Source: Patescibacteria group bacterium (lineage in GTDB: Bacteria > Patescibacteriota > Minisyncoccia > Phycocordibacterales > GWA1-40-21). From it: a DNA stretch of 42,169 nucleotides. Numbering within the stretch: position 1 is the first letter of the stretch; every line of letters begins with the position of its first letter. The stretch covers positions 1 to 42,169 of the forward strand of contig JAGWZI010000003.1 of NCBI GenBank assembly GCA_018968925.1, read 5' to 3'. The notes beneath the pieces were generated by a model. The model was not told the DNA's origin. It made no database searches and was given only the letters and a program-made list of their open reading frames with translations. Below, piece after piece: positions 4,391 to 24,092 of the stretch. The position numbers and the translations under genes are program-made.

Positions 4391-4530
4391 CTGCGGTATT
4401 TTGAAACTTTTCTTTCGGAGCTTCCATGCGTATCACCTCGCTTTCATGATAACGTTCCGCTTTCAGCATACTCCTTTCCGCCGGTCGCGCAAGCGCTTCC
4501 TTTTTCCGGAAAAATATGATAAATTCTCGT

Positions 4531-4614
4531 GGCCGAGCGGTTAGCTGTTTGGGTAGGTCATTTCAAATATTGCGGGGATTAGCTGTTTTGGCAGATCGTT
4601 TACAAAAAACTTGC
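4531..4614 (+). repeat. Two tandem degenerate tRNA-Val 5'-end copies upstream of tRNA-Val
   Basis: GAGCGGTTAGCTGTTTGGG and GCGGGGATTAGCTGTTTTGG versus tRNA GGGCGGTTAGCTCAGTTGG, spacing 38 and 42 nt. Confidence 0.75.
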
Positions 4615-4690
4615 GGGCGGTTAGCTCAGTTGGTAGAGCGCAATCTTGACGTGATTGATGTCAGAGGTTCGATTCCTCTACCGCCCACCA
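4615..4690 (+). tRNA. tRNA-Val(GAC), CCA encoded
   Basis: Cloverleaf GGGCGGT/ACCGCCC, D-arm GCTCAGTTGGTAGAGC, anticodon loop TTGACGT, T-arm AGAGGTTCGATTCCTCT, ACCA. Confidence 0.95.
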
Positions 4691-22386: not shown

Positions 22387-22390
22387 CATG

Positions 22391-22463
22391 TGTCAGGAGC
22401 CGGGTTCGAACCGGCGACCCTTCGCTCTTCAGGCGAATGCTCTACCAACTGAGCTATCCTGAC
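22391..22463 (-). tRNA. tRNA-Phe(GAA)
   Basis: GTCAGGA/TCCTGAC acceptor, anticodon loop CTGAAGA, T-arm GCCGGTTCGAACCCGGC; CCA not encoded. Confidence 0.95.
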
Positions 22464-22535
22464 ATTTCTTGATGTTATCCACCAAAACAGCTATCCTGAA
22501 ATACGCTAATGTTATCAGCCAAAACAGTTATCCTG
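22464..22535 (-). repeat. Two tandem degenerate tRNA-Phe 5'-end copies upstream of tRNA-Phe
   Basis: GTCAGGATAACTGTTTTGG and TTCAGGATAGCTGTTTTGG versus tRNA GTCAGGATAGCTCAGTTGG, period 37 nt. Confidence 0.8.
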
Positions 22536-22599
22536 ACGGACTCTTGCAAACAAAATTCCAGCGAGAAAATACTACACTATTTCCCCTCTTTTTTCCAGC

Positions 22600-23868: not shown

Positions 23869-23905
23869 GTGATTATTTGGTTACCTTTTTAGTATATCAC
23901 ATTTT

Positions 23906-24041
23906 GTGCGGGTAGCGAATCGGTCACAGGTTTTCGCGTGCTCGCGAAACCCGCGACCCTGCCTCACTCGCCTTCGCTCGTTCCGGCTTTCGATTCTCGC
24001 TACAAAAGCTTCGCTTTTTAGTGCGGGTAGCGAGAATCGAA
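23906..24041. repeat. tRNA-Gly 3'-end-derived direct and inverted repeats
   Basis: TTCGATTCTCGCTAC (23989-24003) inverted to GTAGCGAGAATCGAA (24027-24041); GTGCGGGTAGCGA at 23906 and 24021. Confidence 0.8.
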
Positions 24042-24092
24042 CTCGCATATCAACCTTGGGAAGGTCGCATTCTGCCACTAAATTATACCCGC
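24022..24092 (-). tRNA. tRNA-Gly(CCC)
   Basis: GCGGGTA/TACCCGC acceptor, anticodon loop TTCCCAA, T-arm GCGAGTTCGATTCTCGC. Confidence 0.93.

Follow-up and report, generated by a model that had tools for sequence, protein, structure and literature searches.

Altered copies of tRNA 5' ends upstream of cognate tRNA genes in one order of Patescibacteria

Pieces of tRNA sequence beside tRNA genes are known in several forms. The tyrT operon of E. coli has tandem repeats next to a tRNA gene that carry the 3' end of that tRNA and lie downstream of one operon. Elements integrated in tRNA genes are associated with att or target-site duplications, usually of the 3' end, in which a tRNA end is directly repeated with a breakpoint fixed within the tRNA. 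Truncated tRNA pseudogenes and disrupted tRNA genes hold partial tRNA sequence, and T-box riboswitches are cis leader elements tied to one tRNA type, which bind the tRNA in trans (via specifier and UGGN) and control mRNAs. The units described here, termed decoys in the following, share these traits in part but differ from each system. Unlike the tyrT repeats, they copy the 5' end, occur upstream of many tRNAs and have a constant, altered D-arm; unlike att duplications, their repeats are only ~15-60 nt apart with no integrase or element seen in between, and again it is the 5' end that is copied. Plain truncation would keep CAGTTGG, whereas decoys nearly always have GTYT at nt 13-16 and stand, with cognate sequence, directly before their parent gene, and in contrast to T-boxes the gene downstream of a decoy is the tRNA itself.

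The window, i.e., the whole stretch of 42,169 nt that was analysed, is contig 1 of a 579-kb genome with 31 contigs and 45 tRNA genes. Its tRNA-Phe gene is preceded by two 37-nt units, in each of which the 5' strand of the cognate acceptor is followed by TA(G/A)CTGTTTTGG and then by a tail. Start positions on the minus strand are 22537 for GTCAGGATAACTGTTTTGGCTGATAAC, 22500 for TTCAGGATAGCTGTTTTGGTGGATAAC and 22463 for tRNA-Phe (GAA), and both spacings are thus exactly 37 nt, the period that an earlier note on this DNA had reported. Two further units precede tRNA-Val (GAC), and the remaining four tRNA genes of the window are without decoy units. The features are as follows.

22501..22537, minus strand: distal decoy unit of tRNA-Phe, GTCAGGA + TAACTGTTTTGG + tail ctgataacattagcgtat, 37 nt, acceptor identical to tRNA-Phe at 7/7
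22464..22500, minus strand: proximal decoy unit of tRNA-Phe, TTCAGGA + TAGCTGTTTTGG + tail tggataacatcaagaaat, 37 nt, acceptor 6/7
22390..22463, minus strand: tRNA-Phe (GAA), found by ARAGORN and Rfam RF00005 (72.5 bits)
22568..22576, minus strand: putative -10-like promoter site TGTAGTATT, 5' of both Phe decoys, identified by eye
4535..4572, plus strand: distal decoy unit of tRNA-Val (GAC), GAGCGGT + TAGCTGTTTGGG + tail, acceptor 6/7
4573..4614, plus strand: proximal decoy unit of tRNA-Val (GAC), CGGGGAT + TAGCTGTTTTGG + tail, acceptor partly decayed, 4/7
4615..4690, plus strand: tRNA-Val (GAC), found by ARAGORN and Rfam
4517..4525, plus strand: putative -10-like site TGATAAATT, 5' of the Val decoys, identified by eye

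All four sites in the window that match TAGCTGTTTTGG with at most two mismatches lie 5' of tRNA-Val or tRNA-Phe. Their number is only mildly unusual (4 vs. a mean of 1.4 in shuffles, with four or more in 8 of 100 shuffles); the placement of the decoys and their cognate acceptors are not due to chance. Throughout the genome, decoy units occur before at least 10 of the 45 tRNA genes, the core search finding them also 5' of tRNA-Ile(UAU), Val-UAC, Val-CAC, Thr-GGU, Thr-UGU, Lys-CUU, Asp and Met. A search independent of the core identified 8 of 45 tRNAs with a match of at least 10/12 to their own nt 1-12 in the 150 nt upstream, where 0.3 are expected from the same search with mismatched tRNAs, and none of the 45 has such a copy downstream. 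Sites matching TTAGCTGTTTTGG with at most one mismatch are, in this single genome searched whole, without exception 5' of a tRNA.

For a description across genomes, we assembled 88 tRNA genes with units, a set in which three matches, from other phyla, are due to chance and a few counts are carried over from an adjacent tRNA. A decoy repeats nt 1-12 of its own tRNA, starting at the mature 5' end, carries GTYT at nt 13-16, matches the tRNA to about nt 22 and then ends. Among the 79 distal-most copies, identity with the tRNA is 0.24-0.43 over flank positions -20 to -3 and 0.5-0.6 at -2/-1, jumps to 0.86-0.96 at nt 1-7 and 0.95-1.0 at nt 8-12, is zero at nt 13-15, 0.75-0.99 at nt 16-22 and 0.47 at nt 23, and stays at background from nt 24 (nt 10-19 formed part of the search pattern and owe their conservation partly to hit selection; nt 1-7 lay outside it). 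In a search based on the acceptor, the next seven bases were GTYTTGG in 94 of 111 self-matches, at loci that had been collected by the core pattern but in agreement with the core-independent search of the window's genome, and the unaltered CAGTTGG followed almost only in genuine neighbouring tRNAs, in addition to about one fragment (L289). These counts rule out a plain truncated tRNA duplicate.

The length of the D-loop is copied too: tRNAs with the longer GGTTAG have GGTTAG decoys (GGTAG in the others), and a tRNA-Thr with CAGGTAGTAG, which has an unusual GTAGTAG loop, is preceded by the decoy GTTTTAGTAGG. All 88 cognate tRNAs form four of four D-stem pairs, whereas only 9 of 97 decoys form three or more of the four in the canonical register and the other 88 form two at most. 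The identity profile and the D-stem counts together indicate copies that are faithful at nt 1-12 and in the D-loop yet constantly disabled as tRNA. With pair 13:22, A14, G15 and the D-stem lost, such a copy would presumably be unable to make a tRNA 5' half. The earlier note had described a common D-arm change at both loci; an altered D-arm was indeed found at all loci, but the change goes beyond the proposed C13A14G15 to GTT, as position 15 is either T or C (84:26) and the 3' strand of the D-stem (nt 23-25) is lost as well. The acceptor is cognate at nearly all loci, although some decoys keep non-cognate acceptors (L281-L283).

Further copies of tRNA sequence were observed beside the usual ones. 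A second decoy type combines a cognate acceptor with TAGCTCAGTTGTAGCG, in which one D-loop G is lost and the D-stem broken (L394, L400, L402, L404, L406); it is located 70-73 nt before tRNA-Lys or tRNA-Val in genera g90 and g120, and relatives carry the GTYT type there. The genome search for this type at gaps of up to 42 nt gave zero matches, and the known cases need ~50 nt or more. Decoy-like copies also stand before tRNAs with other D-arms in genome G338 (L352 and L354), at Gly(GCC) with two copies (GCGGTCATGGTTTAATGGTTTATTG) and at Cys (GGCCTGGTAGCCAAGTGGCGTGAG), and tRNA-Lys of G395 (L336, L345) and G334 (L273) has acceptor-copy leader hairpins (GCGCCCATATATCCATATAGGCGC) replacing the usual decoy or beside it. 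In three species of the window's genus (G001, G003, G005), an inverted copy of nt 1-18 of tRNA-Asn (e.g., CCGCTAGCTACTCCGGGA) lies ~25 nt upstream of the gene and could pair with the 5' half of the tRNA. At the opposite end, the 3' end of the tRNA is directly repeated downstream of 34 of 320 tRNA genes, usually within 70-220 nt (in the window at 23900-24092, minus strand, after tRNA-Gly(CCC), and at 33 further loci). Between tRNA and copy there is often an inverted T-arm/acceptor copy plus GTACTG and a hairpin (loop NGTAR) or a palindrome like GGGTCGCGA..TTTTC..GAAAA..TCGTGACC; these regions have no Rfam match.

The decoy region itself matches no curated family in Rfam 15. A covariance-model search for the T-box (RF00230) returned only tRNA matches and, on the opposite strand, a Plastid-ycf2 hit below threshold, and an integrated element was rejected on the grounds that units of 35-78 nt leave no coding room between copy and tRNA. 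No description of decoys was found in the literature covered by our search, which lay mostly outside subscription journals. On present evidence, decoys would represent a new kind of sequence, being by these tests neither a T-box, nor a plain truncated tRNA, nor an integrated element.

The pattern (A/T)(A/G)CTGTYTTGG, followed by AGCTCAG at 20-50 nt, matched in 53 of 397 sampled genomes and 39 of 179 genera of the same order, a few of the matches being without a cognate acceptor, and the reversed control pattern gave one match in the same scan. A stricter pattern gave 0 matches in ~363 genomes from other orders of the class and phylum. Among the matches listed from the named collection, those with cognate acceptors come from records of Nomurabacteria, Lloydbacteria, Taylorbacteria, Parcubacteria, Paceibacterota, Patescibacteria and uncultured bacteria. 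In the matches listed from other phyla the acceptors are unrelated; these matches are chance, and a wide bacterial distribution was therefore rejected. By association with the records that have cognate acceptors, the window would itself belong to the Patescibacteria. In this sample decoys are restricted to one order, across whose genomes their presence is sporadic, patchy and burst-like.

Where the acceptor of an isoacceptor differs between families, decoys have the base of their own tRNA 275 times, that of the other family 13 times and neither 21 times, in counts that are not independent of one another. For Phe, the tRNA of the window has GTCAGGA and its decoys GTCAGGA and TTCAGGA, with tails GATAACAT; in the family members G006 and G009 the tRNA has GCCGAGA and the decoys GCTGAGA and GCCGATA, with tails GATAACATC and GATAACGC, and the Phe promoter stretch is near-identical between the window and G006. 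For Met, decoy and tRNA both have GTCGGCG in the window's genome and GTCGACG in G002, with related tails. For Val(UAC), both copies and the tRNA have GCGCGGT in G338, while in G320, behind the same promoter, the copies have GTGCGAT and GCGCGAT and the tRNA GCGCGAT. The acceptors, noted earlier as locus-specific at Phe and Val, are cognate at each locus; decoy acceptors track their own tRNA between genomes, and the covariation that the earlier note had proposed to look for is present in the counts as well as in the Phe, Met and Val-UAC orthologues. Among 55 decoys whose flank resembles that of the tRNA at no more than 5 of 12 positions, 6.35 of 7 acceptor bases are still kept on average and 32 acceptors are perfect; the acceptor has accordingly been kept or recopied while the flank was lost. 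The flank is clearly duplicated along with the tRNA start at four loci (L093, L172, L221, L289). Both the existence of the decoys and their cognate tracking are established.

Presence and absence were compared among close relatives. The congeners G002, G003 and G005 have normal-looking tRNA-Phe genes without decoys, and the AAATAGTGTA(G/A)TAT promoter stretch of the window was found again by eye 5' of tRNA-Phe in G003, G005 and G006; this promoter and an upstream frame with a similar peptide (FYxxEPYV, by eye) indicate that the Phe locus of G003 is orthologous. In genus g90, the Val(UAC) locus is empty in G355, whereas G338 and G320 have two units there and G384 and G370 a different decoy type. 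Insertion with target-site duplication was considered in view of such empty orthologous loci and the few flank duplications; judged from sequence, the empty loci would fit gain and precise loss alike. Many older decoy copies drift, and several congeners are without units altogether. In G004, tRNA-Phe (L370) shows a 41-nt direct repeat (29 nt of flank plus nt 1-12) around a hairpin-rich insert of ~95 nt after nt 12.

Tandem arrays reach four or more units, often identical including the tail, e.g., three 55-nt units at L101, three units each at L211 and L138, and four at L110. Units are mostly 37-42 or 52-59 nt long. The conserved spacing that the earlier note had suggested checking holds loosely, with most distances at 35-60 nt, but not strictly. 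Decoy-to-tRNA spacing appears multimodal (~39, 56 and 72 nt), and longer tails occasionally contain a -10-like site. Across families, tails are more alike within an isoacceptor than between isoacceptors (4.14 vs. 3.81 of 10; reached in 0 of 1000 label shuffles), which suggests common descent rather than fresh independent origin and renders doubtful the earlier description of the loci as independent. Complementarity between tail and tRNA was not detected. A hairpin of core and tail was seen in single cases (L266, L138), but it was rejected as a general feature with no excess over shuffles (mean z -0.01).

An extended -10 detector trained on tRNA genes without decoys, which finds 33 of 78 ordinary genes, detected a site 5' of the decoy at 20 of 79 loci and within the tail at 5 of 79. 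The sites lie ~22 nt before nt 1 of the decoy, comparable to a median of 20.5 nt before tRNAs without decoys, and at Val-UAC in g90 decoy nt 1 is at the same distance from the -10 as the tRNA start in G355, where the locus is empty. Decoys also occur between apparently co-transcribed tRNAs (Val-UAC of the window's genome, L264). With promoters usually upstream and decoys between co-transcribed tRNAs, it is probable that the primary transcript includes the decoys. The genome encodes an RNase P RNA (E 5.8e-42).

The boundaries anchored to the tRNA and the cognate tracking suggest a role at the RNA level, of which competition between decoy and true 5' strand for the 3' acceptor strand would be the simplest form. 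Our preferred reading, which we hold tentatively and with less than even confidence, is that decoys act as transcribed, cis-acting pseudo-5' ends that would compete in pre-tRNA folding or RNase P processing. RNA polymerase would make the decoy before its tRNA, and the emerging 3' acceptor strand of the tRNA would have two alternative pairing partners, the decoy and the true 5' strand. Such competition could delay or tune folding, RNase P cleavage or exposure of the CCA end until the true cloverleaf wins; the leader with the decoy would then be discarded by RNase P, and copies would multiply or disappear via recombination between direct repeats. In minimum free energy folds, nt 1-7 of the decoy are often paired to the 3' strand of the tRNA, but a competing fold is trivially expected from the sequence identity of decoy and tRNA. 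Acceptor mismatches in decoys show no bias toward preserving pairs with the tRNA 3' strand, with 24 keeping and 24 breaking transitions, and only 24 of 76 unique acceptor mismatches keep a pair. This test would see nothing if mismatched copies are dead, whereas live mismatched copies would mean that the pairing model is wrong. Pairing with the 3' strand is not supported as the reason for the acceptor match, as selection for it gave no signal. A wider version is unlikely in our estimate: decoys might constitute a lineage-specific control of tRNAs, in which each of many tRNA genes has its own coevolving mimic of nt 1-22, encoded in the leader, that controls maturation in cis; RNase P may set this mimic free as a small RNA, similar to a 5' fragment, that acts on the cognate tRNA.

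The earlier note had argued for function and not random decay, a view to which cognate tracking and the constant core lend weight but which the mismatches, the hairpin result and the sporadic presence do not favor. Decoys could instead be inert repeats that arise by tandem duplication of the tRNA 5' end and slippage, with gene conversion by the adjacent tRNA keeping nt 1-12 alike and no selected role. The identical triplicate units of L101, L211 and L138, the four loci with a duplicated flank, the variable copy number with no-decoy loci in close relatives, and acceptor mutations that look neutral are all consistent with this; we nevertheless consider it somewhat unlikely, as it leaves unexplained the presence of GTYT at nt 13-16 in nearly every locus and isoacceptor with unaltered copies almost absent, the isoacceptor-specific tails across families, and the loss of flanks with retention of nt 1-12. 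Less probable still is a site-specific mini-insertion, in which a sequence starting with GTYTTGG(T)AG enters after tRNA nt 12 and duplicates the target nt 1-12, sometimes with 5' flank, in the manner of mobile elements at tRNA genes. The breakpoint after TAGCT (nt 12) recurs, also where tRNA-Phe of G004 has its unrelated 95-nt hairpin insert flanked by 41-nt direct repeats, the minimal new sequence is ~15 nt (L289), the distribution is patchy and burst-like, and other tRNA-end duplications exist downstream of tRNAs. However, the inserted part copies the cognate D-loop length (GGTTAG vs. GGTAG) and even the GTAGTAG loop of one tRNA-Thr, its second end is not conserved, all TTAGCTGTTTTGG sites in the genome searched whole lie 5' of tRNAs, and a full-length element was not seen.

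A DNA-level element, whose core would be part of a promoter (TTGGNA serving as its -35-like hexamer) or a protein-binding site, such as that of a regulator, and whose acceptor copy would be incidental, appears very improbable. A -10-like sequence does follow TTGGNA by ~16-17 nt at some long-tail loci (L122, L145, L205; by eye), but the usual promoter is upstream of the decoy, decoys also occur between co-transcribed tRNAs, short units leave no room for a -10, and the cognate acceptor would go unexplained.

If decoys are functional, as in the preferred reading of competing pseudo-5' ends, they would represent cis regulation of tRNA biogenesis through cognate mimicry, in bacteria that are reduced, mostly uncultured and little studied as to their tRNA supply. 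If they are not, they would be an unusual case in which concerted evolution is tied to the 5' ends of mature tRNAs. In both cases, tRNA annotation in such genomes misses a recurrent element.
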